Shown: in pieces, positions 427 to 58,725 of the stretch
Layout of the letters: the number at the start of each line of letters is the position of its first letter
Position numbering within the stretch: the first letter of the stretch is position 1
Translations under genes and position numbers: made by a program
Source of the DNA: Cepaea nemoralis
Lineage: Eukaryota > Mollusca > Gastropoda > Stylommatophora > Helicidae
Assembly (NCBI GenBank): GCA_014155875.1
Contig: JACEFZ010001418.1
Coordinates: 44,552-108,551, forward strand
DNA length: 64,000 nt
Reading direction: 5' to 3'
The notes under the pieces: model-generated
What the model was told of the DNA's origin: nothing
What the model saw: the letters and a program-made list of their open reading frames with translations, nothing else
The model's database searches: none

Positions 427-1244
427 GCTGTCCTCTCCACAGAAAGTGATCTTGCTGACTGTACATGAACTGCTGTCCTCTCCACAGAAAGTGATCTTGC
501 TGACTGTACATGAACTGCTGTCCTCTCCACAGAAATCTTGCTGACTGTACATGAACTGCTGTCCCCTCCACAGAAAGTGATCTTGCTGACTGTACATGAA
601 CTGCTGTCCTCTCCACAGAAAGTGATCTTGCTGACTGTACATGAACTGCTGTCCTCTCCACAGAAAGTGATCTTGCTGACTGTACATGAACTGCTGTCCT
701 CTCCACAGAAAGTGATCTTGCTGACTGTACATGAACTGCTGTCCTCTCCACAGAAAGTGATCTTGCTGACTGTACATGAACTGCTGTCCTCTCCACAGAA
801 AGTGATCTTGCTGACTGTACATGAACTGCTGTCCTCTCCACAGAAAGTGATCTTGCTGACTGTACATGAACTGCTGTCCTCTCCACAGAAAGTGATCTTG
901 CTGACTGTACATGAACTGCTGTCCTCTCCACAGAAAGTGATCTTGCTGACTGTACATGAACTGCTGTCCTCTCCACAGAAAGTGATCTTGCTGACTGTAC
1001 ATGAACTGCTGTCCTCTCCACAGAAAGTGATCTTGCTGACTGTACATGAACTGCTGTCCCCTCCACAGAAATCTTGCTGACTGTACATGAACTGCTGTCC
1101 CCTCCACAGAAAGTGATCTTGCTGACTGTACATGAACTGCTGTCCTCTCCACAGAAAGTGACCTTGCTGACTGTACATGAACTGCTGTCCCCTCCACAGA
1201 AAGTGATCTTGCTGACTGTACATGAACTGCTGTCCTCTCCACAG
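427..1244 (+). repeat. 45-bp array of tandem 3' splice acceptors
   Basis: Nineteen copies of a branch point / pyrimidine tract / CAG module. The CAGs end at 442, 487, 532, 573, then every 45 bp to 1068, then 1109, 1154, 1199 and 1244. Each unit contains ttgctgac (branch-point-like), ctgtcctctccacag, and then aaagtgatc. The last copy is the real acceptor of exon 1, which itself begins AAAGTGATC. Two units (ending 573 and 1109) are 41 bp because 4 bp are missing after the CAG. The unit translates as KVILLTVHELLSSPQ in the exon 1 frame, so the last four acceptors (1109-1244) are in frame and open. The 41-bp unit puts TGA at 1078-1080, so acceptors from 573 to 1068 would be non-productive after a phase-0 exon. 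Confidence 0.93.
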
Positions 1245-1401
1245 AAAGTGATCATGCGTCTGGAAAACAGTGTGGCCACAGCTTTACATTCTCAGCGCTC
1301 GTTGCCTGAAGTCCAGGACGCCGACAGTTTCGAGTCCAGGGAAATGCTCTTGAGTGAGAACCTGCTGAAGCAAGCTGTCATGTTAGATGAACAGCAATTA
1401 G
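1245..1401 (+). CDS. Exon 1 (first visible) of the USP37-like gene
   Basis: 157 nt encoding KVIMRLENSVATALHSQRSL and onward to DEQQL, 52 codons plus one base. The acceptor ctctccacag precedes it and the donor TTAG|GTGCGT follows, leaving phase 1. The final G joins AT at the start of exon 2 to make Asp (QQL-D-SLPED), so the reading frame continues. Codon use and composition differ sharply from the flanking repeats. The peptide looks helical and charged; I do not recognise a domain. The gene must extend left of the window because this exon begins with a splice acceptor and has no initiator context. Reading stays open upstream through three more repeat units, so longer forms starting at 1110, 1155 or 1200 are possible. 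Membership in the same gene as exons 4-6 rests on phase, order and strand. Confidence 0.8.
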
Positions 1402-2604
1402 GTGCGTACATTTATCTTTGTACACATTTCTTTGTTAGATGAAAGGCATTTAGGTGCATACATTTAGCTTTGTACACATTTCTGTTAGATGAAAGGCAAT
1501 TAGGTGCGTACATTTATTTTTGTACACATTTCTTTGTTAGATGAAAGGCAAATAGGTGCGTACATTTATTTTTGTACATTTCTTTGTTAGATGAAAGGCA
1601 ATTAGGTGCATACATATAGCTTTGTACACATTTCTATTAGATGAAAAGCAATTAGGTGCATACATTTCTTTGTACACATTTCCGTTAGATAAAAGGCAGT
1701 TAGGTGCAAACATTGATCTTTTACACATTTCTGTTAGATGAAAAGCAATTTGGTGTGTACATTTATTTTTGTACACATTTCTTTGTTAGATTAAAGGCAA
1801 TTAGATGCGTACATTTCTTTGTACGCATTTCTTTGTTAGACGAAAGGTAATTATATGCATACATTTATCTTTGTACATTTCTTTGTTAGATGAAAGGCAA
1901 TTAGGTGCATACATTTAGCTTTGTACACATTTCTGTTAGACGAAAAGCAATTAGGTGCGTACATTTCATTGTACACATTTCCGTTAGGTAAAAGGCAGTT
2001 AGGTGCGTACATTGATCTTTTACACTTCTGTTGGATGAAAGGCAATTTGGTGTGTGTATAGATCTTTTACATATTCTCTTTGTTAGATGAAAGGCAGTTA
2101 GGTGTATACATTGATCATTGTACACATTTCTCTTTGTTAGATGAAAGGCAGTTAGGTGTGTACATTGATCATTGTACACATTTCTCCTTTGTTAGATGAA
2201 AGGCAATTAGGTGAGTACATTCATCTTTGTACACAATTCTCTATTAGATGAAAGACAATTAGGTGTGTACATATTGATATTTGTACATTTCACTTGTTAG
2301 ATGAAAGACAATTAGGTGCACACAATGACCTTTGTACACATTTCTTACGTTAAATGAAAGAGTTAGGTGTTTAATCATTGATATTTGCATATTTCTCTTA
2401 GACGAAAGAAAATTAGGTGCATACATAGGTCTTTGTACACTTCTGTTAGATGACGGGCATTTAGATGTCAACATTGATCTTTGTATACATTTCTCTTTGT
2501 TAGATAAGACATTTAGGTGTACACATTGATCTTTTTACACATATCTCTTTATTAGATGAAAACCAATTGTCTACAGGTTGATCTGTGTACATTTCTCTTG
2601 TTAG
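1402..2604 (+). repeat. ~52-bp array of tandem 5' splice donors after exon 1
   Basis: About two dozen copies of a 45-54-bp unit. Each holds gttagatgaaaggcaattag followed by gtgcgtac or gtgcatac and a T-rich stretch with tttgtacacattt. The exon 1 end reads GTTAGATGAACAGCAATTAG|GTGCGTAC, so every unit is a copy of the exon end plus its donor. Copies diverge to the right (gtgtgtac, gtgtatac, gtgagtac). Use of any distal donor would read into TGA in the first unit (1440-1442), so read-through forms are truncated. Confidence 0.9.
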
Positions 2605-5600
2605 ATAATCATGTTCTGTGTGGTGATTAGCTTAGTCGATTAGTGATATTCTGTGTGGTGAGTAGCTTAGTGATATTCTGTGTGGTGGTGAGTAGATTAG
2701 TGATGTTCTGTGTGGTGAGTAGATTTGTGATGTTCTGTGTGGTGAGTAGATTAGTGATGTTCTGTGTGGTGAGTAGATTAGTGATGTTCTGTGTGGTGAG
2801 TAGATTAGTGATGTTCTGTGTGGTGAGTAGATTTGTGATGTTCTGTGTGGTGAGTAGATTAGTGATGTTCTGTGTGGTGAGCAGCTTAGTGATGTTCTGT
2901 GTGGTGAGTAGATTAGTGATGTTCTGTGTGGTGAGCAGCTTAGTGATGTTCTGTGTGGTGCACAGCTTAGTGTTCTGTGTGGTGAGTAGCTTAGTGATGT
3001 TCTGTGTGGTGCACAGCTTAGTGATGTTCTGTGTGGTGCACAGCTTAGTGATGTTCTGTGTGGTGAGTATCTTATTGATGTTCTGTGTGGTGAATAGATT
3101 TGTGATGTTCTGTGTGGTGAGTAGATTTGTGATGTTCTGTGTGGTGAGTAGATTAGTGATGTTCTGTGTGGTGAGTAGATTTGTGATGTTCTGTGTGGTG
3201 AGTAGATTTGTGATGTTCTGTGTGGTGATAGATTTGTGATGTTCTGTGTGGTGAGTAGATTTGTGATGTTCTGTGTGGTGAGTAGCGTAGTCGATTAGTG
3301 ATGTTCTGTCTGGTGATTAGCTTAGTGATGGTCTGTGTGGTGAGTAGCTTAGTGATGTTGTGTGGTGCACAGCTTAGTGATGTTCTGTGTGGTGAGTAGC
3401 TTAGTGATGTTCTGTGTGGTGAGTAGCTTAGTGATGTTCTGTGTGGTGAGTAGCTTAGTGATGTTCTGTGTGGTGAGTAGCTTAGTTATGTTCTGTGTGG
3501 TGAGTAGCTTAGTGATGTTCTGTGTGTTGCGTAGCTTAGTGATGTTCTGTGTGGTGCGTAGCTTAGTGATGTTCTGTGTGGTGAGCAGCTTAGTGATGTT
3601 CTGTGTGGTGCGTAGCTTAGTGATGTTCTGTGTGGTGAGCATAGCTTAGTGATGTTCTGTGTGGTGCAGTAGCTTAGTGATGTTCTGTGTGGTGAGTAGC
3701 TTAGGTGATGTTCTGTGTGGTGAGTAGCTTAGTGATGTTCTGTGTGGTGAGCTAGCTTAGTGATGTCTGCTGTGGTGCAGTAGCTTAGTGATGTTGTGTG
3801 GTGCGTAGCTTAGTGTTCTGTGTGGTGTGTAGCTTAGTGATGTTCTGTGTGGTGGTGTGTAGCTTAGTGATGTTCTGTGTGGTGCGTAGCTTAGTGATGT
3901 TCTGTGTGGTGTGTAGCTTAGTGATGTTCTGTGTGGTGTGTAGCTTAGTGATGTTCTGTGTGGTGCGTAGCTTAGTGATGTTCTGTGTGGTGCGTAGCTT
4001 AGTGATGTTCTGTGTGGTGCGTAGCTTAGTGATGTTCTGTGTGGTGCGTAGCTTAGTGATGTTCTGTGTGGTGCGTAGCTTAGTGATGTTCTGTGTGGTG
4101 CGTAGCTTAGTGATGTTCTGTGTGGTGCGTAGCTTAGTGATGTTCTGTGTGGTGCGTAGCTTAGTGATGTTCTGTGTGGTGAGTAGCTTAGTGATGTTCT
4201 GTGTGGTGAGTAGCTTAGTGATGTTCTGTGTGGTGAGTAGCTTAGTGATGTTCTGTGTGGTGAGTAGCTTAGTGATGTTCTGTGTGGTGAGTAGCTTAGT
4301 GATGTTCTGTGTGGTGAGTAGCTTAGTGATGTTCTGTGTGGTGAGTAGCTTAGTGATGTTCTATGTGGTGAGTAGCTTAGTGATGTTCTGTGTGGTGCGT
4401 AGCTTAGTGATGTTCTATGTGGTGAGTAGCTTAGTGATGTTCTATGTGGTGAGTAGCTTAGTGATGTTCTGTGTGGTGCATAGCTTAGTGATGTTCTGTG
4501 TGGTGCGTAGCTTAGTGATGTTCTATGTGGTGAGTAGCTTAGTGATGTTCTGTGTGATGGTGCGTAGCTTAGTGATGTTCTGTGTGGTGGTGCGTAGCTT
4601 AGTGATGTTCTGTGTGGTGTGTAGCTTAGTGATGTTCTGTGTGGTGCGCAGCTTAGTGATGTTCTGTGTGGTGCGTAGCTTAGTGATGTTCTATGTGGTG
4701 AGTAGCTTTGTTCTGTGCGGTGCGTAGCTTTGTTCTGTGTGGTGCGTAGCTTAGTGATGTTCTGTGTGGTGGTGCGTAGCTTAGTGATGTTCTGTGTGGT
4801 GAGTAGCTTAGTGATGTTCTATGTGGTGCGTAGCTTAGTGATGTTCTGTGTGGTGGTGTGTAGCTTAGTGATGTTCTGTGTGGTGAGTAGCTTAGTGATG
4901 TTCTGTGTGTTGCGTAGCTTAGTGATGTTCTGTGTGTTGAGTAGCTTAGTGATGTTCTGTGTGGTGAGTAGCTTAGTGATGTTCTGTGTGTTGCGTAGCT
5001 TAGTGATGTTCTGTGTGGTGCGTAGCTTAGTGATGTTCTGTGTGGTGCGTAGCTTAGTGATGTTCTGTGTGGTGCGTAGCTTAGTGATGTTCTGTGTGGT
5101 GTGTAGCTTAGTGATGTTCTGTGTGGTGAGCAGCTTAGTGATGTTCTGTGTGGTGCGTAGCTTAGTGATGTTCTGTGTGGTGCGTAGCTTAGTGATGTTC
5201 TGTGTGGTGAGCAGCTTAGTGATGTTCTGTGTGGTGAGCAGCTTAGTGATGTTCTGTGTGGTGAGCAGCTTAGTGATGTTCTGTGTGGTGAGCAGCTTAG
5301 TGATGTTCTGTGTGGTGCGTAGCTTAGTGATGTTCTATGTGGTGAGTAGCTTAGTGATGTTCTGTGTGGTGCGTAGCTTAGTGATGTTCTATGTGGTGAG
5401 TAGCTTAGTGATGTTCTATGTGGTGAGTAGCTTAGTGATGTTCTGTGTGGTGCATAGCTTAGTGATGTTCTGTGTGGTGCGTAGCTTAGTGATGTTCTAT
5501 GTGGTGAGTAGCTTAGTGATGTTCTGTGTGGTGGTGCGTAGCTTAGTGATGTTCTGTGTGTGGTGCGTAGCTTAGTGATGTTCTGTGTGGTGGCAGCTTA

Positions 5601-6690
5601 GTGATGTTCTGTGTGGTGCGTAGCTTAGTGATGTTCTGTGTGGTGCGTAGCTTGTGATGTTCTGTGTGGTGCGTAGCTTAGTGTGTTCTGTGTGGTGCGT
5701 AGCTTAGTGATGTTCTGTGTGGTGGTGGTAGCTTAGTGATGTTCTGTGTGGTGTGTAGCTTAGTGATGTTCTGTGTGGTGCGCAGCTTAGTGATGTTCTG
5801 TGTGGTGCGTAGCTTAGTGATGTTCTATGTGGTGAGTAGCTTTGTTCTGTGCGGTGCGTAGCTTTGTTCTGTGTGGTGCGTAGCTTAGTGATGTTCTGTG
5901 TGGTGGTGCGTAGCTTAGTGATGTTCTGTGTGGTGAGTAGCTTAGTGATGTTCTGTGTGGTGCATAGCTTAGTGATGTTCTGTGTGGTGCGTAGCTTAGT
6001 GATGTTCTGTGTGGTGCGTAGCTTAGTGATGTTCTGTGTGGTGCGTAGCTTAGTGATGTTCTGTGTGGTGGTGTGTAGCTTAGTGATGTTCTGTGTGGTG
6101 TGTAGCTTAGTGATGTTCTGTGTGGTGAGTAGCTTAGTGATGTTCTGTGTGGTGTGTAGCTTAGTGATGTTCTGTGTGGTGCGTAGCTTAGTGATGTTCT
6201 GTGTGGTGTGTAGCTTAGTGATGTTCTGTGTGGTGAGTAGCTTAGTGATGTTCTGTGTGGTGTGTAGCTTAGTGATGTTCTGTGTGGTGAGTAGCTTAGT
6301 GATGTTCTGTGTGGTGGTGCGTAGCTTAGTGATGTTCTGTGTGGTGCGTAGCTTAGTGATGTTCTGTGTGGTGAGTAGCTTAGTGATGTTCTGTGTGGTG
6401 TTTAGCTTAGTGATGTTCTGTGTGGTGTGTAGCTTAGTGATGTTCTGTGTGGTGAGCAGCTTAGTGATGTTCTGTGTGGTGAGCAGCTTAGTGATGTTCT
6501 GTGTGGTGTGTAGCTTAGTGATGTTCTGTGTGGTGCGTAGCTTAGTGATGTTCTGTGTGGTGCGTAGCTTAGTGATGTTCTGTGTGGTGCGTAGCTTTGT
6601 TCTGTGTGGTGCGTAGCTTAGTGATGTTCTGTGTGGTGAGTAGCTTAGTCGATTAGTGATGTTCTGTGTAGCTTAGTTGATTAGTGATTG
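2605..6690 (+). repeat. 27-bp GT-rich minisatellite, about 150 copies
   Basis: The unit is 27 bp, with core gtgatgttctgtgtggtg followed by agtagctta, cgtagctta, tgtagctta or cacagctta. Many copies contain GTGGTGAGT, which matches the intron side of a 5' splice site perfectly. Because 27 is a multiple of 3, long open frames translate as SLVMFCVVR repeats; these are artefacts of periodicity. A marker (ctttgttctgtgcggtgcg) recurs at about 4707 and 5841, exactly 1134 bp or 42 units apart, showing higher-order duplication. Left (2605-3300) units carry agtagatt, right units agtagctta. Confidence 0.93.
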
Positions 6691-14035: not shown

Positions 14036-14070
<35 letters not shown>

Positions 14071-15781: not shown

Positions 15782-18145
15782 ATTCTTTACCTGAGGATGC
15801 CCTGCACCTGGTGATTGAGGACCTGCTGGTGACACGATATGATCGCACAACCAGCAACCAGAAGAGCATGCACAGTCTTATTGATGATCTGGGTCTGTGT
15901 GTCGCAGCGCTGGAGTCTGGCATCATGACATATAGCAGCCAGGAGCAGATGGCAGCCTTGGACCGCTTCAATGTGATCTTCCAGAAGTATGTGGATAAAT
16001 CTTCCCTGACGGGCACAGAGCGAGGCAGTCCTGATGGAGGCTCTGATCTGGATGTTGAGAATGAGACAGATCACGGGACATTTGTCAGAGTGGAAGATGA
16101 TATATACTTCAAGAGAAGTGGGCCCTTGGAAGTGAAACCAGTGGATAAAAGTTCAGTTCTGCGAGCTCATCAGGGAAGTGACATGTCGCCTCCGGTTGAC
16201 ATGAACTTTGTGTCTGCCCTGTCGGTTGATGGGTGGAATTATACTTGGGATGAGGAAAACAAACATCAGCGTCAACCTCTGTCGGATATTTCGCTTCAGG
16301 CCAGCTGTCCTATGAGCCCAGACTCTAGTAGCCACATGCTCCAGGGCAAACACATCAGCTCATTCACGGAGTCTGACCTTCAGAACATAGACTGTGCATC
16401 CCTAACCGAAGATGAGATGATGGTCTATGCTCAAGCGTTGAGCAGATTTACTTATGCGAAGGAGCAGGCCCCAGTGGTTGACTCGCCTGATCACCCTCCA
16501 GACGATGCTGAAACTATACACCAGATCTCCCCCTGTGACTCGCCTGATCACCCTCCAGACGATGCTGAAACTATACACCAGATCTCCCCCTGTGACTCGC
16601 CTGATCACCCTCCAGATGGTGCTGAAACATTACACCAGAACTCACCCTGTGACCTGGACTGCTTACCGAAGGAGCCCACTTGTTCAGACGGTGCTGAAAG
16701 TGAAGCACAACTGCCAGATACCAGTGGCAGATCACCAGTAGCAAGTGACCAATCCCAGATATGTTCACCCACGTCTGCTGGCCACATGTCTGTGGATTCC
16801 CAGTCTCTGCACACATCTGACATGGAAGCAGATCAAGAGTGCAGTATGCTCTGCCATGAAGCGTTAGGCGATTCAGAAGAGAGTCAGGGAAATCCGTACG
16901 ATTCTGACTGCAAGAGATCACCACAGATTAGCACTGCACAGAACAAAGTTGATCAAGCAGACCAGCCATTGATGGGTTCAGACGTAGTCTCTGTCACACA
17001 CTGTGTATCTTGTGGGAATGTCTGCTCAACTGTGTGTACTGTCTGTGGTGCCTTAGATCAAACTGATTTCAGTTCCCAACCGCTGGATGCTAGCTTTTCC
17101 ACTCCAGCAGCTGAAACTGTTACATCTGATAGGTCCAGAGATTCTTCAGTGGTACCCAGTGAGAAGGCATCCGAGACAAGTGATGATAATTCCCTAGGAC
17201 AACACTGTGTTGCTGGAATTACATCAATAGATTCTCCCCTGCCTGGCACAGCGGGCAAATTGGTCACAGAAAAAAATTCTATCTCTGGCACAGCAGGCAA
17301 ATTGGTCACAGAAACCAATTCTATCTCTGGCACAGCAGACAAATTGGTCACAGAAAAAAATTCTATGTGTGGCACAGCAGACAAATTGGTCACAGAAACA
17401 AATTCTATGCATGGAGCAGCAGGCAAATCAGTGACAGAGGCTGGTGACCACAGGCTGCAGGGCAGTGGTGGTCTCAAGGAGTTTGTGTTTTCTCCCCCCA
17501 AGGCCAACAACCTGATTAAAACTAGAGACTATGCTCGCCTTAAGAGCCCTGCCTTGTCACCCAAAAAACGATCTTCTAAAGGGCCATCACCAAAGTCTGA
17601 TTGTGTGTCAAAGCGGCTGCACTACAGTGAGAAGGGGAGCCAGCTGCAACAGTGTGGTGTTGATGGTAGTAGCCCAGACCTACATAACACTAGCATGCAA
17701 GTGAATGTTGATATGTCATTCTTTGAAAACAAACAATCCTCTTTGGATGCTGCAGCCTGGAACTTGAGCCACCAGTCCACACCTCCTTCCACTAGCAGCA
17801 CACCCAGCGCCAGACGTGATAATCCAGGCCAGACTCCTGTGGATTGTGACAAACCCACCGCCACCTTTGCCAGCAAACCCACCTCCGCCTTTGCCAGCAC
17901 ACCCACCTCTGCCTTCACCAGCACACCTACCTCCGCCTTTGCCAGCACTCCAATGTTGGAGGGTTCAAAGCCATCACAAGTCAGTCAGCTGTCAGATATG
18001 CAAATTGAGGCTGTAGATACTTCCACTCCATCTCGCAACAGGAAGGTGGCCGCCAGCGAAGGCCTGCAGAATATCCAGCCAGAAGCAGCAGTCACGCCCA
18101 AACGGAAGGTGGTCCGATCATCCGCTACTTACATTCCAGGCATTG
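15782..18145 (+). CDS. Exon 2: large disordered segment of the USP37-like protein
   Basis: 2364 nt encoding about 788 residues (53-840 of the visible product), from acceptor gtttatttttcag to donor ATTG|GTGAGT. It is the only long open frame here with non-repetitive codon use. The first ~75 residues (LPEDALHLVIEDLLVTRYDR...) look helical; I do not recognise them. A UIM-like stretch, LTEDEMMVYAQALSRF, lies at about 260-275. A cysteine cluster, CVSCGNVCSTVCTVCG, lies at 460-475. CDK-type sites include SPKKR (645) and TPKRK (824), and the lysine/arginine clusters could be nuclear localisation signals. Three tandem protein repeats (19, 14 and 8 residues) lie inside. The rest is Ser/Thr/Asp-rich and probably disordered. 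In vertebrate USP37 a long insert with UIMs splits the catalytic domain; this exon may be its counterpart, which is inference. If not spliced, the frame stops at TGA 18154-18156. Confidence 0.85.
16480..16650 (+). repeat. 57-bp (19-aa) coding tandem repeat in exon 2
   Basis: Three copies start at 16480, 16537 and 16594 and encode DSPDHPPDDAETIHQISPC; copies 1 and 2 are nearly identical and copy 3 has diverged (DGAETLHQNSPC). In-frame period, so the coding frame is preserved. Residues about 286-342. Confidence 0.95.
17245..17454 (+). repeat. 42-bp (14-aa) coding tandem repeat in exon 2
   Basis: Five copies of GTAGKLVTEKNSIS or close variants, starting at 17245, 17287, 17329, 17371 and 17413; the last is most diverged (GAAGKSVTEAG). 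Residues about 541-610. The alternating K/T variant (TEKNS, TETNS) suggests duplication of a two-unit block. Confidence 0.95.
17853..17952 (+). repeat. 24-bp (8-aa) coding tandem repeat in exon 2
   Basis: Four copies of an 8-residue PTSAFAST-type unit (ATFASKPT, SAFASTPT, SAFTSTPT, SAFASTP). Ser/Thr/Pro-rich, with TP dipeptides that could be phosphorylated; function unknown. Confidence 0.9.
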
Positions 18146-20255: not shown

Positions 20256-20345
20256 AGTCAGATGAAGATGGTTGTATTCACTGCAACATGTATATGCTAA
20301 TTGCCAGTTTGTGTGCTGACTTGTGATTTGTTTTATTTCTGTCAG

Positions 20346-20440
20346 AAGAGAAGGAGAATGTACATCAGCAGAGGTGTACAGGAGAGAAGGAAAATGTGCA
20401 TCAGCAGAGGAGTACCAGTGGTCTGTTGCACGACCTGCAG
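20346..20440 (+). CDS. Exon 3: tandem KEN-box exon
   Basis: 95 nt between acceptor tttatttctgtcag and donor CTGCAG|GTCAGT; phase 1 in, phase 0 out. A branch-point-like gctgac lies about 30 bases upstream. It encodes EEKENVHQQRCTG, EKENVHQQRST and SGLLHDLQ (residues 841-872). Two KEN motifs stand at 843-845 and 855-857, 12 residues apart. KEN boxes are recognised by the CDH1 form of APC/C, and vertebrate USP37 is a known CDH1 partner with a KEN motif ahead of its His-box half, so position and motif agree. The exon is short, but its phases fit both neighbours and it has good splice sites. Functional degron activity is inference. Confidence 0.75.
20349..20420 (+). repeat. 36-bp direct duplication inside exon 3
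   Basis: agaagg at 20349 and again at 20385 starts two 36-bp copies encoding EKENVHQQRCTG and EKENVHQQRSTS. They differ at only a few bases. The duplication doubled the KEN motif without changing frame. Confidence 0.93.
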
Positions 20441-20449
20441 GTCAGTGCT

Positions 20450-21045
20450 GCTGTCTGTGTCTGCTGTCTGAGTCTTATATCTGCTGTGTATATCTTATAT
20501 CTGTTGTCTCTATTCTATCTGTTATCTGTATCTTTTGTCTGTTGTCTCTCTATCTGCTGTCTGTATCTTTTGTCTGTTGTATGTTTCTCTTCTATCTGCT
20601 GTATCTTTTGTCCTGTTGTCTCTCTTCTATCTGCTGTATCTTTTGTCTGTTGTCTGTTTATTGTATCTGTCTCTCTTCTATCTGTTATCTGTATCTTTTG
20701 TCTGTTGTCTGTATCTTGTATCTGCTGTATCTGTCTGTTGTCTCGCTTCTATCAGCTATCTGTATCTTTTGTCTGTTGTCTGCATCTTGTATCTGCTGTA
20801 TCTTTTGTCTGTTGTCTGTTGTCTCTCTTCTATCTACTATATGTATCTTTTGTCTGTTGTTTGTATCTCGTATCTGCTGTATCTTTTGTCTGCTGTCTGT
20901 ATCTTTTGACTGTCTATGATATATCTTATATCTGCTGTCTGTATCTGTCTCTGTATCTGCTGTCTTCTATCTGCTGTCTCTCTTCTATCTGCTGTCTCTC
21001 TCTGTCTCTATATTTGCTGTCTCTTCTATCTGCTGTCTGTCCCTT
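20450..21045 (+). repeat. Degenerate ctgtctgtatctttt array at the start of intron 3
   Basis: Loose tandem copies of tgtatcttttgtctgttgtc and tcttctatctgctg, period roughly 20-30 bp, beginning within ten bases of the exon 3 donor. The donor itself (CAGGTCAGTGC) is not visibly copied in the units. The + strand is almost free of A outside tat. Confidence 0.8.
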
Positions 21046-24000
21046 CAGCAGCAGTATCTTGTATCTGTCTGCTGCCTGTATCTTGTATCTGTCTGCTGCC
21101 TGTATCTGTCTGCTGCCTGTATCTTGTATCTGTCTGCTGCCTGTATCTTGTCTCTGCCTTATCTGTCTGCTGCCTGTATCTGTCTGCTGCCTGTATCTTG
21201 TATCTGTCTGCTGCCTGTATCTGTCTGCTGCCTGTATCTGTCTGCTGCCTGTCTTGTATCTGTCTGCTGCCTGTATCTTGTATCTGTCTGCTGCCTGTAT
21301 CTGTCTGCTGCCTGTCTTGTATCTGTCTGCTGCCTGTATCTGTCTGCTGCCTGTCTTGTATCTGTCTGCTGCCTGTATCTGTCTGCTGCCTGTATCTGTC
21401 TGCTGCCTTGTATCTGTCTGCTGCCTGTATCTTGTATCTGTCTGCTGCTTGTATCTGTCTGCTGCCTGTATCTGTCTGCTGCTTGTATCTGTCTGCTGCT
21501 TGTATCTGTCTGCTGCTTGTATCTGTCTGCTGCTTGTATCTGTCTGCTGCCTGTATCTTGTATATGTCTGCTGCCTGTACTTGTATCTGTCTGCTGCCTG
21601 TATCTTGTATCTGTCTGCTGCCTGTCTTGTATCTGTCTGCTGCTGTCTTGTATCTGTCTGCTGCCTGTATCTTGTATCTGTCTGCTGCCTGTCTTGTATC
21701 TGTCTGCTGCCTGTATCTTGTAATCTGTCTGCTTGTCCTGTATCTGTCTGCTGCCTGTATCTTGTATATCTGCTGCCTGTATCTTGTATCTGTCCGGCTG
21801 CCTGTAATCTGTATGTCTGCCTGTATCTGTCGGCTGCCTGTATCTTGAATCTGCCTGCCTGTATCTTGTATCTGTCTGCTGCCGGTACTGTCTTGCCTAG
21901 TATCTGTCTGCTCCTTTTATTTCTGCCGTCTTTTTTGCTCCTGTTTTGTATCTGTCTGCTGCCTGTTCTTGTTTTTCTGCTGTTCTTGTATTTCTGTCCT
22001 GTATTTCTGCTCCTGTTTTGTTCTTCTGCTGTCTTTTGTCCTGTGTCGTCTTTCTCTGCCTTTTTGTATCTGTCTGCTGCCTGTTTTGTTCTTCTCTTTG
22101 TCTTGTATTTTTGCTGTCTTTTGTCTGCCCTTTTATTCTCTGCCTGTTTTTTCTCTGCCTTTTTCTGTTTTCTGTTTGTTTTGCTTGTCTTGTATCTGTC
22201 TGCTGCCTGTATCTGTATGTCTTGCCTGTCTTTATCTTTGCCTGTTTTCCTGTATATCTCTGCCTGTATTGTATCTGTCTCTGCCCCTTTTTCTTGTATA
22301 TCTGCTGCCTGTATCTTGTATGTCTGCTGCCTGTCTTGTATCTGTCTCTTCTGTCTTGTAATTCTTCCCCGTCTTTGTATCTGTCTCTGCCTTTTTTATA
22401 TCTTCCCCCTGTATCTTGATCTGTGCCTTACTTTATCTGCTCTGGTTTTCTTGTATTTTTCCCGTATCTTGTATTCTGCCTTTTGTATATCTGCTCCTGT
22501 ATTTTATTCTGCTGCTGTATCTTGTATTTCTGCTGCCTGTATCTTGTATTCCTGCCTTTTTTCTGTCCTGTTCTTCTTTCCCGCTGTTCTTGTATCTGTC
22601 TGCTGCCTGTATCTGTTATCGTCTGCTGTTCTTGTATCTGTCTGCTCCTGTTTTTTTTGCTCCCGTTCTTGTATTCTGTGCTTTGTATTCTCTGCCTGAT
22701 CTTGTATTGCTGCTGCCTGTTTTATATCTCTGCCTGTATCTTGTATTCTGCTGCCTGTCTTGTATCTGTCTGCTGCTTTGTTATCTTCCTGTATCTTGTT
22801 TCTGCTGCCCGTTTCTGTTTCTGTCCTGTCTTGTATTCCCGCTCCTGTATCTTTTTCTGCTCCTGTATCTTTCGTCTGCTGCCTGTATCTGTTGCTGCCT
22901 GTATCTTGTATCTGCTGCCTGTATCTTGTATCTGCTGCCTGTATCTTGTTTTGCCTCCTGTATCTTTTTGTCTGCCCTTTTTATCTGCTCCCGCTGTATC
23001 TTTTGCTGCTGCTTTTTGTTTTTGCTTCTTGTATCTGTGCTCCTTTTGTCTTACTGTTGCTGCCCTTTTGTATCTGCTGCCTGTATTTGTATTCTCTCCG
23101 TATCTTCTGTCTGCCCTTTTTCTTGTTCTGCTCTGTATTTGTTTCTTTTCTTCCCCTTTTTATCTGCTCCTGTTTATCTGCTCCTTTTTTCTTTTTTCTG
23201 TCTTCCCGTTTGTCTGCTGCCTGTCTGTCTCTCTGTATCTGTCTGTCCTGTATCTTGTACTGTCTGCTTCTTGTTCTGTCTGCTGCCTGTTCTGTTCTCC
23301 TTCTTTTTGCCTGTTCTTGTACTGTCTGGCCCTTTTTTATCTTCTGGCCGTTCTTGTCTGTTGCTGCCTGTTTGTATTCTGCGCCTGTATCTTGCGTGTC
23401 GTCCCTTTTCTTGTTCTTCCTTCTGTTCCTTGTTTTCTTTGCTGCCTGCTTGTTCTGCTCTGCCCGTCTTGTATCTGTCTTGGGCCCGTTCTTGTATCTT
23501 CTCTCCTTCTGTATCTGCTGCTGCCTGTATCTTTTTTCTGTTTTGTTCTTGTACTGTTGTCCTTTTTCTGCTGCCTGTTCTTTATTGTCTTCTCTGTATC
23601 TTGTATCTTCTGCCTTTTTCTGCTCCTGTTCTTTTATCTGTCTGCTGCCTGTATCTTGTATCTGTCTGCTGCCTGTATCTTGTTTTGTCTTCCCGTCTGT
23701 ATTTGTCTCTGCCCGGCTTTTTTCTGTCTGCTGCCCTGTATCTTGTCTTGCTGCTGTACTTGTATCTGTCTGCTGCCTGTATCTTCGCTGCCTGTCTTTC
23801 TGTCTGCTGCCTGTTCTTGTTCTGTCTGCTGCCTGTATCTTTTCTGTCTGTCCTGTATTTTCTTCTCTGCCTGTTCTTGTTCTGCTCTGCCTGTTCTGTA
23901 TCTGTCTGCTGCCTGTATCTTTCTGCTGTCCTGTATCTTTCTGCTGTTTTCTTGTTCTGTCTGTCCTGTATCTATCTCTGCGCCTGTGTTTGTTCTTTCC

Positions 24001-27000
24001 CGCCTGTTCTTGTATCTGTCTGCTGCCTGTATTTATCTGTCTGCTGCCTGTATTTGTTCTGCTGCCTGTTTCTTGTATCTTTTGCTGCCTGTATCTTGTA
24101 TCTTCTGCTGCCTGTTCTTGTATCTGCTGCGCCTTTTTTTATCTGTCTGGCCTGATCTTTCTGTCTCTCCCGTCTTGTATTCTGCTGCCTGTATTTTTCT
24201 GTCTGCTCCTGTATCTTGTATCTGTCTCTCTGTGTCTTTTATCTGTCTGCCCCTGTTTTTCTCTGCCTGTTGTTGTCTGTTCTCTGTTCCTTTTTCTGTC
24301 TGCTGCCTGTTCTTGTATCTGTCTGCTGCCTGTTCTTTATCTGTCTTCCTGCTTGTTCTGTCCCGTTTCCCGCTGCTTGTCTTGTATCTGTCTGCTGCCT
24401 GTTCTTGTATCTGCTCCTTTATTTGCCTGTCTTGTATCTGTCTGCTGCCTGTTCTTGTATCTGTCTCCTGTTTTGTTCTGTCTGTGCCTTGTCCTTGTAT
24501 GTCTGCTGCCTTTTATCTGTCTGCTGTTGTCTGTTTGTCTTCCGTGCCTTTCTTTCTGCTGGGTTTTTTGTTGCGCCTTTTGTCTGTGCTGCCTGTTCTT
24601 CTGCTGCCCCGTATCTGTCTGCTCCTTTTTCTCCTGTATCTGTCTGCTGCCTGTATCTGTCTCTGCCCGTCTCTGCTGCCTTCCTGCTCCCGTCTGTCCT
24701 GTATCTGTATCTGCCCTGTTCTGTTTTCTGCCTGTTCTTTTCTGTCCCGCTGTTTTGTTTTCTCTGTTGTATCTTTTGGGCCCGTGTCTGTTCTGCTGTT
24801 CCTTCTTGCTGTTCTTCCCGCCTGTATCTTTCTGCCCGCCCGTCTTGTTTCTGTCTGCTCCCTTTTCTGTCTGCTGCCTGTTCTTATCTGCTGCTTTCTG
24901 CTTTTCTTATCTGTGCCTGTATCTTTTACTTCTTTCCTGTATCTTGTATCTGTCTGCTGCCTGTTTTTCTGCCTGTATCTGTCTGCTGCCTGTATCTTGT
25001 TCTGTCTGCTGCCTGTTTTATTTCTGCTGCCTGTTTTTCTTGCTGCCTGTATCTTGTTTTCTTGCTGCCTGTATCTTTCTTGGGTTTTTGTTCTTTCTTC
25101 TGCTGCCTGTATCTTTTGCTGTCTTCTCTGATTTGTATCTGTCTCTGCCTGTTCTTGTTCTCTGTCCTGTTGTATCTGTCTGTCCGTTTTATCTGCTTGC
25201 CTGTTTTTTCTCTGTTTCTGTTCTTTTTCTGCTGCCTGTATCTTTATCTGTCTCTGCTGTTTGTATCTTTCTGCTGCCTTTTATTTCTGCTGCCTGTTCT
25301 TTTCTTCTTCTGGTGCCCGTATCTGTCTGCTGCCTGGTTTTTGTATTTGCTCCGTTTTCTGTCTGCTGCCCGTGTTTTTCTGTTGCTGCCTGTGTCTTTT
25401 TTCTGCTGCCTGTGTCTTGTTTTCTCTCCGTATCTTGTATCTGTCTCTTCTTTTCTTCTGCTCCTGTTCTTGTATCTGTTGCTTTCTTCTGTCTTCTCTC
25501 TTTTTTTTGCTGCCTGTTCTGTATCTGTCTGTGCCTGGCTGTATCTGTCTCTGCCTGTGTCTTGTATGTCTGCTGCCTGTCCTTTTATCTGTCTGCTGCC
25601 TGTTCTTTCTTCTTGCTTCTGCTGCCTTGTTCTGCTGCTGTTTTTGTCTCCCCCTGTATCTGTCTGCTGCCTGTATCTTGTATCTGTCTGCTGCCTGTAT
25701 CTTGTATCTGTCTGCTGCCTGTATCTGTTCTGCTGCCTGTATCTTGTATCTGTCTGCTGCCTGTATCTTGTATCTGTCTGCTGCCTGTATCTTATGTCTG
25801 CTGCCTGTATCTTGTCTGCTGCCTGTTCTTTTCTGCTGCCCTGTTCTTATCTGTCTGCTGCCTGTTCTTTTTTCTGTCTGCTGCCTGTATCTGTCTGCTG
25901 CCTGTATCTTGTATCTGTCTGCTGCCTGTATCTGTCTGCTGCTGTCTGCTGCTGTCTTGTATCTGTCTGCTGCCTGTATCTTGTATCTGTCTGCTGCCTG
26001 TATCTTGTATCTGTCTGCTGCCTGTATCTGTCTGCTGCCTGTATCTTGTATCTGTCTGCTGCCTGTATTGTATCTGTCTGCTGCCTGTGTCTTGTATCTG
26101 TCTGCTGCCTGTATCTTGTATCTGTCTGCTGCCTGTATCTTGTATCTGTCTGCTGCCTGTATCTTGTATCTGTCTGCTGCCTGTCTCCTGTATCTGTCTG
26201 CTGCCTGTATGTTCTGCCTGTATTTCTGCCCTGGTTTCTGTCCCGTATCTGTCTGTCTGTATCTGTCGCTGCCTGTTTTTTGTCTGGCTGTTTTTTTTTT
26301 CTGCTGTTTTTTCTGCTGCCTGTATCTTGTCTGTTCTTCTGTCTTGTATCTTCTGCTGCCGTATCTTTTTTCTGTTCTTCCTCTTTTTCTGCTCCTGCTA
26401 TTGTTCTGCCCTTTTCTGCTGCCTGTTTGTTTTGTCTGCTGCCTGTGTTTTGTATCTGTCTGCTGCCTGTATCTTGTATCTGTCTGCTGCCTGTATCTTG
26501 TATCTGTCTGCTGCCTGTATCTGTCTGGCCCTGTTCTTTTCTGCTGTCCTTATCTTGTATCTGTCTGTGCCTGTTCTTTATCTGCTGCTGCCTGTTCTGT
26601 CTGCTGCCTGTTCTTGTATCTGTCTGCTCCTTCTCTGGCTTCCTTTTTCTGTATCTTCTGCTGTATTTGTTCTGTCTGCTCCCGTTTGTATCTGTCTGTC
26701 CCGTATCTGTCTCTGCTTCCCGTATCTGTCTGCTGCCTGTATCTTCTCTCCCGTCTTTTTTCTGTCCTGTCCTTTTTTTTGCCTGCCTTTTCTCTGCCTG
26801 TATCTTGTCTGTCTGCTGCCTGTATCTTTTTTCTTTCCCTTTTTTTTCTCCTGCCTGTATCTTCTCTGCCTGTGTCTTGTCTGTCTGCTTTTATCTGTTC
26901 TGCTGTATTGTTCTTCTGCTCCTGTATCTTCTCTCCCTTTTTTGTATCTTCTCTGTTCTGTATCTATCTGCTGCCTGTATCTTGTCTTTGTCTGCCCCTT

Positions 27001-30000: not shown

Positions 30001-30600
30001 TCTATCTGCTGCCTGCTATCTGCTGCTTGTATCTTGTCTGCTGCCTGTATCTTTCTGCTGCCTATTTTTCTGCTGCCTGTTCTTCTGCTCCTTTCTTTCT
30101 GCTGCCTGTATCTTTATCTGCTGCCTGATCTTGCTGCCTTATCTTTCTGCTGCCTGTATCTTGTCTGCTCTGTTCTTTTCCTGCCTGTATCTATCTGCTG
30201 CCTGTATCTTGTTTTCTTCCCGTATCTTTCTCCCGTATCTTGTCTGCTGCCTGTTTTGTCTGCTGCCTATCTGTTGCTGCTGTTTTCTGCTGCCTGTATC
30301 TGTCTGCTGCCTGTTGTCTCTGCCTGTTCTTTTTTTCTGCCTTTTCTGCTGCCTTCTTGTATCTCTGCCTGTATCTATTGCTGCCTGTATTTCTGCCCCG
30401 TATCTGTTTCTGCCTGTATCTGTCTGCTGCCTGTATCTGTCTGCTGCCTTTTCTGGCCTGTATCTGTCTGCTGCCTGTATGTCTGCTGCCTGTATTTTCT
30501 GCCTTCTTCTGCTGTTTTATCTGTCTGGGCCCTTTTTTTCCTGTCTGCTGCCGTTTTCTGCTGCCTTTTATTGTCTGCTGCCGTTTTGTCTGCTGTTTTA
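21046..30600 (+). repeat. CTG-rich pyrimidine minisatellite, ~9.5 kb
   Basis: The basic module tgtctgctgcctgtatct (18 bp) is often extended by tgtatc to 24 bp. Regular blocks occur at 21046-21880, 25650-26200, 28140-28600, 29330-29560 and 29830-30000. Between them the same motif is broken by many small indels and T or C runs. The scarcity of A leaves one frame open for over 1700 codons (SAACICLLPVS-type repeats), but it has no codon structure and no homology I recognise. Dense in UGCU and in pyrimidine tracts on the sense strand. Confidence 0.9.
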
Positions 30601-31990: not shown

Positions 31991-32096
31991 TGGTTAATCT
32001 ATGTGGGTAGCTGTTTGTGATTACTGTTGAATAGTTATGTGATCATGATTGATGATTGTGGTTGACACTGTTGGTACTGATTGCATGTGTTGACAG

Positions 32097-32166
32097 GATG
32101 GGACGCAGGACTTATCCTACAAGTTGGTCAGTGTTGTTGACCACACAGGCAGCTCACAGTTCACAG
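32097..32166 (+). CDS. USP37: Exon 4: start of USP His-box half
   Basis: 70 nt between acceptor gcatgtgttgacag and donor TTCACAG|GTAGGC; phase 0 in, phase 1 out. It encodes DGTQDLSYKLVSVVDHTGSS then QFT (residues 873-895). The pattern YKLVSVVDHTGSS is the typical USP strand just before the catalytic histidine (YxLxxVxxHxG). Joined to exon 5 it reads SSQFT-GHYTAYAFN. Compared from memory with human USP37 (YRLISVVSHIGS), the match is close. Peptidase family C19; the product removes ubiquitin from target proteins. Only this half of the catalytic core is in the window. Confidence 0.85.
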
Positions 32167-32790
32167 GTAGGCACTGTCTTCTTCTGTCCAATTCTCTGTT
32201 AACAGGTAGGCACTGTCTGTCCGCTTTTGTTCACAGGTACTGTCCACAGTTCACAGGTTGGCACTATGTCTGCTTCTGTTCACAGGTAGGCACTGTCTGC
32301 TTATGTCCACTGCTCACAGTTCACAGGTAGGCACTGTCTGTCTGCTTCTGTCCAGTTCACAGGTAGGCACTGTCTTGTCTGCTTCTGTTCACAGGTAGGC
32401 ACTGTCTGCTTCTGTCCACTTCTGTTCTCAGGTAGGCACTGTCTGTCTGCTTCTGTCCACTGCTCAGTTCACAGGTAGGCATTGTCGGTCTGCTTCTGTC
32501 CATTTCACAGTTAGGCACTGTCTGTCTGTTTCTGTTCACGTCTCAGTTCTCAGGTAGGCAGTGTCTGCTTCTGTCCACTGACCACAGTTCATAGTTGTCC
32601 ACAGTTCACAGGTAGGCAGTCTGTCTGCTTCTAGCCACAGTTCACAGGTAGGCAGTCTGTCTGCTTCTAGCCACAGTTCACAGGTAGGCAGTCTGTCTGC
32701 TTCTGTCCACAGTTCACATATAGGCACTGTCTGTCGGCTTCTGTCCACTGCTCAGTTCAGGTAGGCACTATCTGTCTGCTTCTGACCACT
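32167..32790 (+). repeat. 30-45-bp array of tandem 5' splice donors after exon 4
   Basis: About 17 units, each with cagttcacag followed by gtaggcactgtctgtctgc and ttctgtcca. Exon 4 ends CAGTTCACAG|GTAGGCACTG, so the unit is a copy of the exon end plus donor. About a dozen copies keep CAGGTAGGCA intact; others have CAGGTACTG, CAGGTTGGC or a lost GT. Unit length varies between about 28 and 58 bp. Confidence 0.9.
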
Positions 32791-33248
32791 GCTCTTATTG
32801 TGCTGATGCTGTTATTGTGGGTGTTATTGTTTTTTGTTTATTGCTGTCAATGTAATGTTTGATAATACTGTTTTGTTATTACTGTTGCTATTTTAGTTTA
32901 TGATGTTGTGGTTGCTGTTATTGCCCTGTATTTTGTGTTGGCATTTTGGTGGCGGCACTATGCACAGTTGAAATACTTTTTACATTGTCCGCAGTCGTTT
33001 CTAGCATGAACTGTATGTTCGGAATAATGACAGCCGACTTGTCGCGGAACTGACTGGATTGCCTTATGCAGTAATGTGTGGCTGCTGGTTTTCTAGTGGC
33101 TGCCGCTTCCATCAACGATGAACTTTATTTTTCTTAGCGGACTTTTGTGTTGGCATTCTGGTGGCGGCATTATGCGCAGTGTACTTGTGTGGGCTGTTGG
33201 TTTGTCGAGACTATTTGTTCCAGTTTTCACATGGGGCTGTGAGGAGCA
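32791..33248. other. Non-array island in intron 4 with a dispersed duplication
   Basis: Mostly unique sequence. A stretch around gtgttggcattttggtggcg (about 32935) recurs slightly changed at about 33147 (gcattctggtggcggcatta), about 210 bp apart in direct orientation. It could be the edge of an old mobile element, but I see no terminal repeats, target-site duplication or coding domain. Confidence 0.45.
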
Positions 33249-54351: not shown

Positions 54352-54490
54352 GTCACTACACAGCGTATGCCTTCAACATGAGCAGGAGGAAGTGGTTTCA
54401 CCTCAACGACACAGAGACACGAACAGTCACAGAAGACCTGGTTCAAGGAGGATAATGCACAGACTGGATATTGTTCTTTTACATGGACAA
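54352..54490 (+). CDS. USP37: Exon 5: USP catalytic His/Asn box, with in-frame stop
   Basis: 139 nt, acceptor cacatatag, donor ATGGACAA|GTAAGT; phase 1 in, phase 2 out. It encodes GHYTAYAFNMSRRKWFHLND (catalytic His 897; Asn/Asp 914/915) and TETRTVTEDLVQGG, then TAA at 54453-54455, then CTDWILFFYMD. GHYTAY and WFHLND are diagnostic of the C19 His box. The stretch FFYMDK continues into exon 6 as DLFDE, matching the USP37-type ending (human FFYMHKEIFDE, from memory). The TAA breaks it. In another frame the missing part reads DNAQTGY, as expected for a USP, so one extra base near 54447-54452 and one missing base near 54470 would reconcile both. Either a base-calling error pair or a real disabling mutation. 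Confidence 0.85.
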
Positions 54491-54790
54491 GTAAGTCTTG
54501 GTGTGTGAACATGTATGTTGTCAGCTTGTTCTGTACATGGACGAGTAAGTCTTGGTGTGTGAACATGTATGTTTATCAGCTTGTTCTGTACTTGGACGAG
54601 TAAGTCTTGGTGTGTGAACATGTAGTTTGTCAGCTGTCTGTACATGGACGAGTAAGTCTTGGTGTGTGAACATGTATGTTTGTCAGCTGTCTGTACATGG
54701 ACGAGTGAAGTCTTGGTTGTGTGAACAGTTTGTCCCTTGTTCTGTACATGGACAAGTAAGTCTTGGTGTGGTTGAAATGTTTGTTGTCAG
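54491..54790 (+). repeat. ~53-bp array of tandem 5' splice donors after exon 5
   Basis: Units of 51-55 bp hold ttgttctgtacatggacga followed by gtaagtcttggtgtgtgaac. The real donor GT is at 54491; intact GTAAG copies are at 54545, 54600, 54652 and 54756, and a damaged one (gtgaag) at 54705. Exon 5 ends TTACATGGACAA|GTAAGTC, so the unit is the exon end plus donor plus about 40 bases of intron. Confidence 0.9.
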
Positions 54791-57700
54791 CTTGTTCTGT
54801 ACATGGACAATTCAGTTTTTTGTTCTGTACATGGAACAAGTCTAGTTTGTTTGTTCCGTACCATGGACAATCTAGTTTGTTATGTACATGGTCATGTCTA
54901 GTTTGTTTTGTTCTCTACATGGACAAGTCTAGTTTGTTTTGTTCTGTACATGGACAAGTCTAGTTTGTTTGTTCTCTACATGGGCAAGTCTAGTTTGTTT
55001 GTTCTGTATGTGAACAAGTCTAGTTTGGTTTGTTCTCTACATGGACAAGACTAGTTTGTTGTTCTGTACATGAACAAGTCTAGTTTTGTTTGTTCTGTAC
55101 ATGGACAAGTCTAGTTTGTTTTGTTCTGTATGTGAACAAGTCTAGTTTGTTTGTTCTGTACATGGACAAGTCTAGTTTGTTTGTTCTGTATGTGAACAAG
55201 TCTAGTTTGTTTGTTCTCTACATGGGCAAGTCTAGTTTGTTTGTTCTGTATGTGAACAAGTCTAGTTTGTTTGTTCTCTACATGGGCAAGTCTAGTTACT
55301 ACTACTACTACTATGTGAACAAGTCTAGTTTGTTTGTTCTGTATGTGAACAAGTCTAGTTTGTTTGTTCTGTATGTGAACAAGTCTAGTTTGTTTGTTCT
55401 GTATGTGAACAAGTCTAGTTTGTTTGTTCTGTACATGGACAAGTCTAGTTTGTTTGTTCTGTACATGGACAAGTCTAGTTTGTTCTGTACATCATCTAGT
55501 TTGTTTGTTCTGTACATGGACAAGTCTAGTTTGTTTGTTCTCTACATGGACAAGTCTAGTTTGTTTGTTCTGTACATGGACAAGTCTAGTTTGTTTGTTC
55601 TGTACATGGACAATTCCAGTTTGTTTGTTCTGTACATGGACAAGTCTAGTTTGTTTGTTCTGTACATGGACAAGTCTAGTTTGTTTATGTACATGGTCAT
55701 GTCTAGTTTGTTTGTTCTCTACATGGACAAGTCTAGTTTGTTTGTTCTGTACATGGACAAGTCTAGTTTGTTTGTTCTGGACATGGTCACGTCTAGTTTG
55801 TTTGTTCTGTACATGGACAAGTCTAGTTTGTTTGTTCTGTACATGGACAATTCCAGTTTGTTTGTTCTGTACATGAACAAGTCTAGTTTTTTTGTTCTCT
55901 ACATGAACCAGTCTAGTTTCTTTGTTCTGTACATGGACAATTCTAGTTTGTTTGCTCTGTATGTGAACAAGTCTAGTTTGTTTGTTCTGTACATGGACAA
56001 GTCTAGTTTGTTTGTTCTGTATGTGAACAAGTCTAGTTTGTTTGTTCTCTACATGGGCAAGTCTAGTTTGTTTGTTCTGTATGTGAACAAGTCTAGTTTG
56101 TTTGTTCTCTACATGGACAAGACTAGTTTGTTTGTTCTGTACATGAACAAGTCTAGTTTGTTTGTTCTGTACATGGACAAGTCTAGTTTGTTTGTTCTGT
56201 ATGTGAACAAGTCTAGTTTGTTTGTTCTGTACATGGACAAGTCTAGTTTGTTTGTTCTGTACATGGACAAGTCTAGTTTGTTCTGTACATCATCTAGTTT
56301 GTTTGTTCTGTACATGGACAAGTCTAGTTTGTTTGTTCTCTACATGGACAAGTCTACTTTGTTTGTTCTGTACATGGACAAGTCTAGTTTTTGTTCTGTA
56401 CATGGACAATTCCAGTTTGTTTGTTCTGTACATGGACAAGTCTAGTTTGTTTGTTCTGTACATGGACAAGTCTAGTTTGTTTATGTACATGGTCATGTCT
56501 AGTTTGTTTGTTCTCTACATGGACAAGTCTAGTTTGTTTGTTCTGTACATGGACAAGTCTAGTTTGTTTGTTCTGGACATGGTCACGTCTAGTTTGTTTG
56601 TTCTGTACATGGACAATTCCAGTTTGTTTGTTCTGTACATGAACAAGTCTAGTTTTTTTGTTCTCTACATGAACCAGTCTAGTTTCTTTGTTCTGTACAT
56701 GGACAATTCTAGTTTGTTTGCTCTGTATGTGAACAAGTCTAGTTTGTTTGTTCTGTACATGGACAAGTCTAGTTTGTTTGTTCTGTACATGGTCACGTCT
56801 AGTTTGTTTGTTCTGTACATGGTCACGTCTAGTTTGTTTGTTCTGTACATGGTCACATCTAGTTTGTTTGTTCTCTACATGGGCAAGTCTAGTTTGTTTG
56901 TTCTCTACATGGGCAAGTCTAGTTGTTTGTTCTGTATGTGAACAAGTCTAGTTTGTTTGTTCTCTACATGGACAAGACTAGTTTGTTTGTTCTGTACATG
57001 AACAAGTCTAGTTTGTTTGTTCTGTACATGGACAAGTCTAGTTTGTTTGTTCTGTATGTGAACAAGTCTAGTTTGTTTGTTCTGTACATGGACAAGTCTA
57101 GTTTGTTTGTTCTGTACATGGACAAGTCTAGTTTGTTCTGTACATCATCTAGTTTGTTTGTTCTGTACATGGACAAGTCTAGTTTGTTTGTTCTGTACAT
57201 GGACAAGTCTAGTTTGTTCTGTACATCAAGTCTAGTTTGTTTGTTCTCTACATGGACAAGTCTAGTTTGTTTGTTCTCTACATGGGCAAGTCGTTTGTTT
57301 CTGTACATGAACAAGTCTAGTTTGTTTGTTCTCTACATGAACAAGTCTAGTTTCTTTGTTCTGTTCATGGTCACGTCTAGTTTGTTTGTTCTGTACATGG
57401 ACAATTCCAGTTTGTTTGCTCTGTATGTGAACAAGTCTAGTTTGTTTGTTCTGTACATGGACATGTCTAATTTGTTTGTTCTGTACATGGTCACATCTAG
57501 TTTGTTTGTTCTCTACATGGGCAAGTCTAGTTTGTTTGTTCTCTACATGGGCAAGTCTAGTTTGTTTGTTCTGTATGTGAACAAGTCTAGTTTGTTCTGT
57601 ACATGGTCAAGTCTAGTTTGTTTGTTCTGTCTGAACAAGTCTAGTTTGTTTGTTCTCTACATGGACAAGTCTAGTTTGTTTGTTCTTTTCATGGACAAGT

Positions 57701-58725
57701 CTAGTTTAGTTTGTTCTGTATGTGAACAAGTCTAGTTTGTTTGTTCTGTATGTGAACAAGTATAGTTTGTTTGTTCTGTATATGGACAAGTCTAGTTTGT
57801 TTGTTCTGTACATGGTCAAGCCTAGTTTGTTTGTTCTGTATATGGACAAGTCTAGTGGTGTTTGTTCTGTACATGGTCAAGCCTAGTTTGTTTGTTCTGT
57901 ATATGGACAAGTCTAGTGTGTTTGTTCTGTACATGGACAAGTCTAGTGTTTGTTCTGTACATGGACAAGTCAAGTTTGTTTTTTCTGTACATGGACAAGT
58001 CTAGTTTGTTCTGTACATCGTCTAGTTTGTTTTGTACATGGACAAGTCTAGTTTGTTTGTTCTCTACATGGGCAAGTCTAGTTTGTTTGTTCTGTATGTG
58101 AACAAGTCTAGTTTGTTCTGTACATGGTCAAGTCTAGTTTGTTTGTTCTGTACATGGTCAAGTCTAGTTTTTGTTCTGTCTGTGAACAAGTCTAGTTTGT
58201 TTGTTCTCTACATGGACAAGTCTAGTTTGTTTGTTCTGTACATGGACAAGTCATGTGAACAAGTCTAGTTTGTTTGTTCTGTATGTGAACAAGTATCGTT
58301 TGTTTTTTCTGTACATGGACAAGTCTAGTTTGTTTGTTCTGTATATGGACAAGTCTAGTGTGTTTGTTCTGTACATGGACAAGTCTAGTTTGTTTGTTCT
58401 GTACATGGACAAGTCAAGTTTGTTTTTTCTGTACATGGACAAGTCTAGTTTGTTCTGTGCATCGTCTAGTTTGTTTGTTCTGTACATGGACAAGTCTAGT
58501 TTGTTTGTTCTGTACATGGACAAGTCTAGTTTGTTGTGTAAATCAAGTCTAGTTTGTTTGTTCTGTACATGGACAAGTCTAGTCTGTTTGTTCTGTACAT
58601 GGTCATGTCTAGTCTGTTTGTTCATTACATGGACAAGCCTAGTTTGTGTGCTGTACATGGACAAGTCCAGTTTGTTTGTTCTGTATTTGAACAACTCTAG
58701 ATTTTGTTGTGTACATGGACAAGTG
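54791..58725 (+). repeat. 30-bp array descended from the exon 5 end, about 130 copies
   Basis: The unit is 30 bp: tctagtttgtttgttctgta followed by catggacaag. It translates as SSLFVLYMDK, recalling the LFFYMDK end of exon 5, and follows directly from the donor array; the donor GTAAGT has become GTCTAGT. Variants: tgtgaacaag, catgggcaag, catggtcacg. A rare marker (tacatcatctagtttg) at about 55491, 56289 and 57144 shows that blocks of about 0.8 kb were duplicated. Open frames of up to 450 codons result from the period. Confidence 0.93.

Follow-up and report, generated by a model that had tools for sequence, protein, structure and literature searches.

The window analysed here, which covers the last 64,000 of the 108,551 bases of a contig from the 3.47 Gb genome of Cepaea nemoralis, carries the 3′ portion of a ubiquitin-specific protease (USP) gene, encoding a USP-type ubiquitin hydrolase, in which several exon borders are overlain by tandem arrays whose units are copies of the splice junction itself (Table 1). 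A stretch encoded by exons 4 and 5 matches the Pfam family UCH (E = 1.9e-10) and also USP chains in PDB (best E = 1.8e-5). For exon 2 Pfam returned no family above its cut-off, and a protein search found one relative (P0001) among 8000 candidates scored. We take the gene, by comparison with related proteins, to be USP37-like, with the subtype provisional.

Table 1. Exons and arrays of the USP gene and junction-associated repeats at other loci. Coordinates are window positions; those prefixed L001 lie in the same gene, upstream of the window. A slash marks the exon–intron junction.
Feature	Position	Strand	Description
Exon 0	L001:1411-1544		Upstream of window; precedes exon 1
Exon 1	1245..1401	+	157 nt; acceptor CCACAG/AAAGTG; donor CAATTAG/GTGCGT; frame continuous from exon 0 to exon 2
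Exon 2	15782..18145	+	2364 nt
Exon 3	20346..20440	+	95 nt
Exon 4	32097..32166	+	70 nt; donor TTCACAG/GTAGGC; within USP domain
Exon 5	54352..54490	+	Donor ACAA/GTAAGT; within USP domain; in-frame stop
Exon 6	60286..60343	+	Acceptor TTTGCAG/GGATCT; stop TAA; assigned by eye from frame continuity
Exon 0 acceptor array	L001:1216-1428		Upstream of window; 5 copies, one badly damaged; ~18 exon bases
Exon 1 acceptor array	427..1262	+	19 copies; 45-bp unit GCTGTCCTCTCCACAG/AAAGTGATC...
Exon 1 donor array	1381..2606	+	25 copies (last a fragment); ~52 bp; 21 exon bases
Exon 4 donor array	32157..32794	+	17 copies (last a single base); ~43 bp; 10-15 exon bases
Exon 5 donor array	54471..54897	+	8 units of 55 bp; GT in place in 6
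Exon 5-derived array	54791..58720	+	30-bp unit; 134 copies at least 60% complete
Further array, exon 1 donor intron	2640..6649	+	27-bp unit; 148 copies; consensus contains GTGAGT
L038, RRM-gene acceptor			29.6 copies of 48 bp, 99% matches; six exon bases; extends past fetched stretch
L066, RRM-gene acceptor			42 copies of 42 bp; six exon bases; last copy interrupted; extends past fetched stretch
L060			Two copies of junction
L004, myosin donor			GTGAGT unit, 83 times at 34 bp; at most 1 exon base
L007, myosin donor			49 GTAAGT within 1439 bp
L024, donor junction			One decayed copy, 229 bp away
L094, exon end			Decayed copy 371 bp away
L113			Acceptor-like stretch repeated, without clear exon bases

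When joined by script through the sites that adjoin the complete exons, exons 0–5 share a single reading frame, which runs until an in-frame stop within exon 5. That exon also shows two apparent frame breaks that cancel each other (judged by eye, three frames against other USP sequences) and, because of the stop and the breaks, may carry sequencing indels or be damaged. In total, 13 junctions of the gene were read (6 donors and 7 acceptors), 11 of them inside the window.

Border-spanning arrays occur at 5 of these 13 junctions, three donors and two acceptors. Units and copy numbers were determined by wrap-around alignment, which bears out the first-pass annotation in its central observation: four arrays in the window, at the exon 1 acceptor and at the donors of exons 1, 4 and 5, are made of copies of the adjacent splice junction, with exon bases and the splice dinucleotide in the unit. 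At the exon 1 acceptor, each unit comprises a polypyrimidine tract, CAG and 9–13 exon bases, and the final copy is the acceptor that adjoins the complete exon. The exon 4 donor array holds 15 CAG/GTN sites, true donor counted in. Among the six units of the exon 5 donor array with GT in place, five read GTAAGT, again including the true donor, and one is damaged. Beyond them the array passes into shorter units that retain TTCTGTACATGGACAA and in whose consensus GTCTAG replaces GTAAGT. Allowing up to 4 edits, this exon 5-derived 16-mer has 136 matches between 54471 and the end of the intron, the exon's own copy counted, as compared with 2–4 in five Markov shuffles. Counted by eye, the exon bases per unit range from about 9 to 21 in the four window arrays and number about 18 in the exon 0 array. 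Nearly complete copies other than the authentic site mostly keep the dinucleotide: AG in 18 of 18 at the exon 1 acceptor, and GT in 20 of 23, 12 of 15 and 5 of 5 at the donors of exons 1, 4 and 5, respectively.

Arrays of this kind have precedents. Two reports (PMC3087553, PMC3902484) describe border-spanning tandem repeats, there named mirages, in the amphioxus genes for Adh3, troponin C, the globins BflGb6 and BflGb9 and PGBD5, and state that mRNA splicing is undisturbed; BflGb6 has 6 and 3 copies in two haplotypes, and units run from 10–72 bp (Adh3) to about 160 bp (globins). As in amphioxus, the units of the USP gene cross the exon–intron boundary and include exon bases, at donors as well as acceptors, with AG or GT in many copies; and the continuous frame from exon 0 into exon 5, as read from the DNA through the exon-adjacent copies, is consistent with undisturbed splicing. 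The amphioxus mirages were reported gene by gene, whereas in the present, new host five junctions of one gene bear arrays of 5 to 25 copies, with about 42 at another locus of the genome. A second precedent is the donor-bearing minisatellite of human IFI6 (6-16, G1P3), which supplies multiple splice donors (Turri et al. 1995, as cited in PMC4526556). In the citing article two downstream IFI6 units are reported as donors, whereas the sites described here were read from the genomic sequence. Finally, PMC4974935 covers intron gain by tandem duplication in ATP2A1, fission yeast and potato RdRp; there, too, the additional splice signals come from tandem duplication, but a new intron is created, whereas in the USP gene copies of a junction already present accumulate and the intron merely lengthens. 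The arrays are therefore of a known kind, given the amphioxus mirages and the IFI6 minisatellite. The first-pass annotation had considered junction-derived minisatellites on this scale unfamiliar. Searches of the open-licence literature did not find a report of arrays that comprise dozens of copies and recur, at no more than a few percent of the junctions sampled, in a 3.5-Gb genome. What is new here is the host, the scale and an estimate of frequency.

We consider it probable that the arrays are mirage-type minisatellites that represent a neutral spill-over of very active tandem duplication onto exon edges. Introns all over this genome would acquire local tandem duplications that then grow through slippage or unequal exchange, and occasionally the first duplicated 40–55 bp would straddle an exon edge. 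Such duplications should be nearly neutral on the intron side, because the copy that touches the complete exon still yields the same mRNA. Surplus copies, with decoy splice sites and some exon bases, would then accumulate in the intron and later drift or collapse into shorter units. Several lines of evidence point in this direction.

First, the introns consist for the most part of tandem repeats. Tandem Repeats Finder assigns 98, 61, 94, 95 and 96% of the five introns of the window to tandem repeats, among them a 43-bp array upstream of exon 2 that stops about 10 nt short of the acceptor. For a model of seeding we counted 24 separate arrays and estimated that the ancestral introns totalled about 4.0 kb; uniform seeding then yields 0.22 spanning arrays per junction, or 2.9 per 13, where 5 are observed (P = 0.17).

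Second, repetition within the gene does not concentrate at the junctions. A 24-base self-similarity mask was applied around the 6 donors and 7 acceptors. It covers 4 of the donors at +6 to +150 and 3 at −10; of the acceptors, all 7 are covered at +150, 3 at both +10 and −8, and 4 at −10, and one of these is covered by the exonic repeat of exon 3. Across the 13 junctions the profile has no junction peak, and coverage declines from the intron toward the border.

Third, the same holds in a sample of other junctions of the genome. The sample comprised 148 exon loci, 87 of them from the 150 rows of an RRM table and 61 corresponding to 60 of the 69 rows of a myosin table (one exon occurring twice). 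Rows were taken by score rank (the first 30 myosin loci), because their domain match broke off within the domain or, later, for a short open frame, in each case without regard to repeats. Junctions were called with generic splice weights. Those accepted, either because they cleared the score limits or by manual placement once the sequence had been read, were 117 of 148 donors and 94 of 148 acceptors; dropping near-identical junctions left 105 donors and 87 acceptors, 192 in all. As a probe we used the junction-centred 22-mer and its recurrence within 430 nt. It recurs at 3 of 192 junctions (1.6%: L024, L038 and L060), compared with 76 of 576 intron positions taken at +80, +150 and +250 (13.2%; Fisher p = 3e-7) and a Markov-shuffle background of 3 in 315, about 1%. 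Recurrence climbs with distance from the junction, from 1.6% at offset 0 to 6.8% at +20, 9.9% at +40 and 10–17% deeper in the intron. No offset from −20 to +30 exceeds the intron-interior rate, although misplaced junctions among the 192 would blur any peak.

The first-pass annotation had reasoned that repeated placement at the junction is not to be expected of ordinary intronic satellites, and had proposed to ask whether repeats starting near exon borders include exon sequence more often than chance allows. Neither the within-gene profile and seeding expectation nor the sampled junctions sustain that reasoning, and the proposed preference fails as far as the 192-junction sample reaches. A stricter count gives it a weak point in its favour. 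An initial 24-bp tandem mask had a 2.8% Markov background and placed 13 first edges at 0–20 nt, compared with 2–8 in the other 20-nt bins to 100 nt; it was too permissive for counting edges and was therefore replaced by a strict count with Tandem Repeats Finder. Strict arrays have an edge within 400 nt at 38 of the 192 junctions.

Several points weigh against neutral spill-over. Within 60 nt of a junction lie 12 of the strict arrays, where the remainder predicts 7.6 (P = 0.09). The 5 of 13 junctions in the USP gene likewise exceed the 2.9 expected, in a window that had been selected for its pattern, and that expectation is built from the repeat density of the window introns only and from an ancestral intron length that is itself an estimate. 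Of seven arrays compared, four here and three elsewhere, five have a splice motif with lower divergence than the remainder of their unit, a lean toward some constraint. Lastly, that splicing uses exclusively the exon-adjacent site is something we infer. On the other side, inspection by eye places the splice site or its motif in 5 of the 12 strict arrays near junctions (L038, L066, L004, L007 and, with no more than an acceptor-like stretch, L113), which would be about the outcome of random start points with 40-bp units.

The excesses described above speak for junction-directed seeding, that is, expansion triggered by donor or polypyrimidine sequence or by R-loops at exon edges, with introns growing outward from exon borders. 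The abundance of exon 5-derived 16-mers in a single intron fits this explanation as well, as does the exon 1 donor array, in which divergence increases away from the exon (rho = 0.77, p = 1e-5). The other seven of the eight arrays tested show no outward rise, and the exon 1 acceptor array tends, if at all, toward lower divergence outward (rho = −0.40, p = 0.089; rho = −0.58, p = 0.018 with the three outermost copies excluded). With a rising gradient in only 1 of 8 arrays, general outward growth from the exon edge, another proposal of the first-pass annotation, was rejected. Together with the scarcity of repetition at sampled junctions relative to introns and the lack of a peak within the gene, this leaves junction-directed seeding unlikely.

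The retention of GT and AG in many copies and the lower divergence of the motif raise the further possibility of selection for splice-site redundancy, in which extra donors and acceptors would be kept for robust splicing or useful isoforms. The motif is less diverged in the arrays of the exon 1 acceptor (slightly), the exon 4 donor, the exon 5 donor, L066 and L004, and more diverged in those of the exon 1 donor and L038. When the motif is ranked among all windows of its unit, the windows less diverged than it number 22 of 45 (exon 1 acceptor), 30 of 52 (exon 1 donor), 3 of 43 (exon 4), 11 of 55 (exon 5), 5 of 42 (L066), 39 of 48 (L038) and 3 of 34 (L004), a mixed picture that leans to conservation in some arrays. 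The consequences of using distal sites are mostly disruptive. Of the 18 upstream copies of the exon 1 acceptor, 15 lead to a stop and 3 keep the frame, adding 15, 30 or 45 residues; reading through the exon 1 donor meets a stop about 13 residues on. The loss of GTAAGT from the 30-bp consensus derived from exon 5 also argues against such selection, which the first-pass annotation had offered as one explanation, which finds little support here and which we regard as very improbable.

Two further readings were rejected. The exon 1 acceptor array does not behave as a coding repeat, its frame being broken by two 41-bp copies. A role of the donor arrays as U1 landing pads was rejected on the grounds that same-composition shuffles average above the observed count in 4 of the 5 introns. 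Across the five introns there are 192 strong donor-like sites in sense and 8 in antisense orientation; only the first intron, which holds the 148-copy GTGAGT array, beats its shuffles, with 157 donor-like sites against a maximum of 122.

An assembly artefact, with arrays multiplied or misjoined during assembly, would be in keeping with the in-frame stop and apparent frame breaks of exon 5 and with odd homopolymer runs in parts of the long arrays. On account of these features, base-level errors in the assembly are likely, and the copy numbers of the arrays may be off. The copies of the exon 1 and exon 4 donor arrays bear distinct variants, however, and similar arrays occur on four other contigs (L004, L007, L038 and L066), so an origin of the arrays themselves in assembly has very little probability. 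Three pairs of exon loci on different contigs (L015/L016, L026/L027 and L077/L078) match exactly in the parts or scores compared, suggesting that both haplotypes persist at some places in the assembly.

Read as neutral mirages, the arrays extend this phenomenon from amphioxus to another genome and allow a first, rough estimate of frequency: 3 of the 192 junctions sampled, by a strict probe whose shuffle background is about 1%, with four more loci (L066, L004, L007 and the decayed L094) that fail the junction 22-mer test and were judged by eye. They also show exons tolerating massive duplication of their own edges, and they constitute natural tests of how the spliceosome chooses among dozens of near-identical sites. 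The genome here is much larger than that of amphioxus. More speculatively, junction-straddling duplications could continually feed both the growth of introns and variation in the choice of splice sites, with arrays at thousands of exon edges, some of which (the exon 1 acceptor array, with steps of 45 nt, for instance) would yield proteins whose numbers of 15-residue inserts differ between individuals; we consider this wider proposal a long shot.

Tandem repetition also marks other parts of the gene. In exon 3, a 36-bp in-frame duplication (20343-20415) begins at the acceptor CAG, and its second copy might therefore act as an in-frame alternative acceptor. Exon 2 contains internal tandem repeats at 16479-16653 (57 bp), 17243-17428 (42 bp) and 17853-17948 (24 bp); all three periods are multiples of three, and tandem duplication is therefore active in coding sequence too. 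In one intron, a single array with a 25-bp unit extends over 20 kb (34099-54203); a patch rich in homopolymers around 34600 is possibly assembly noise. The 11.7-kb intron at 20441-32096 has 5.7% A on its sense strand and 13 AG dinucleotides in total. T exceeds A on the sense strand in 21 of the 23 arrays of the window introns and in 43 of 64 in the sampled genes. Upstream of exon 1, the intron contains an open frame (L001:5876-6334) whose translation, judged by eye, resembles a LINE-type reverse transcriptase.

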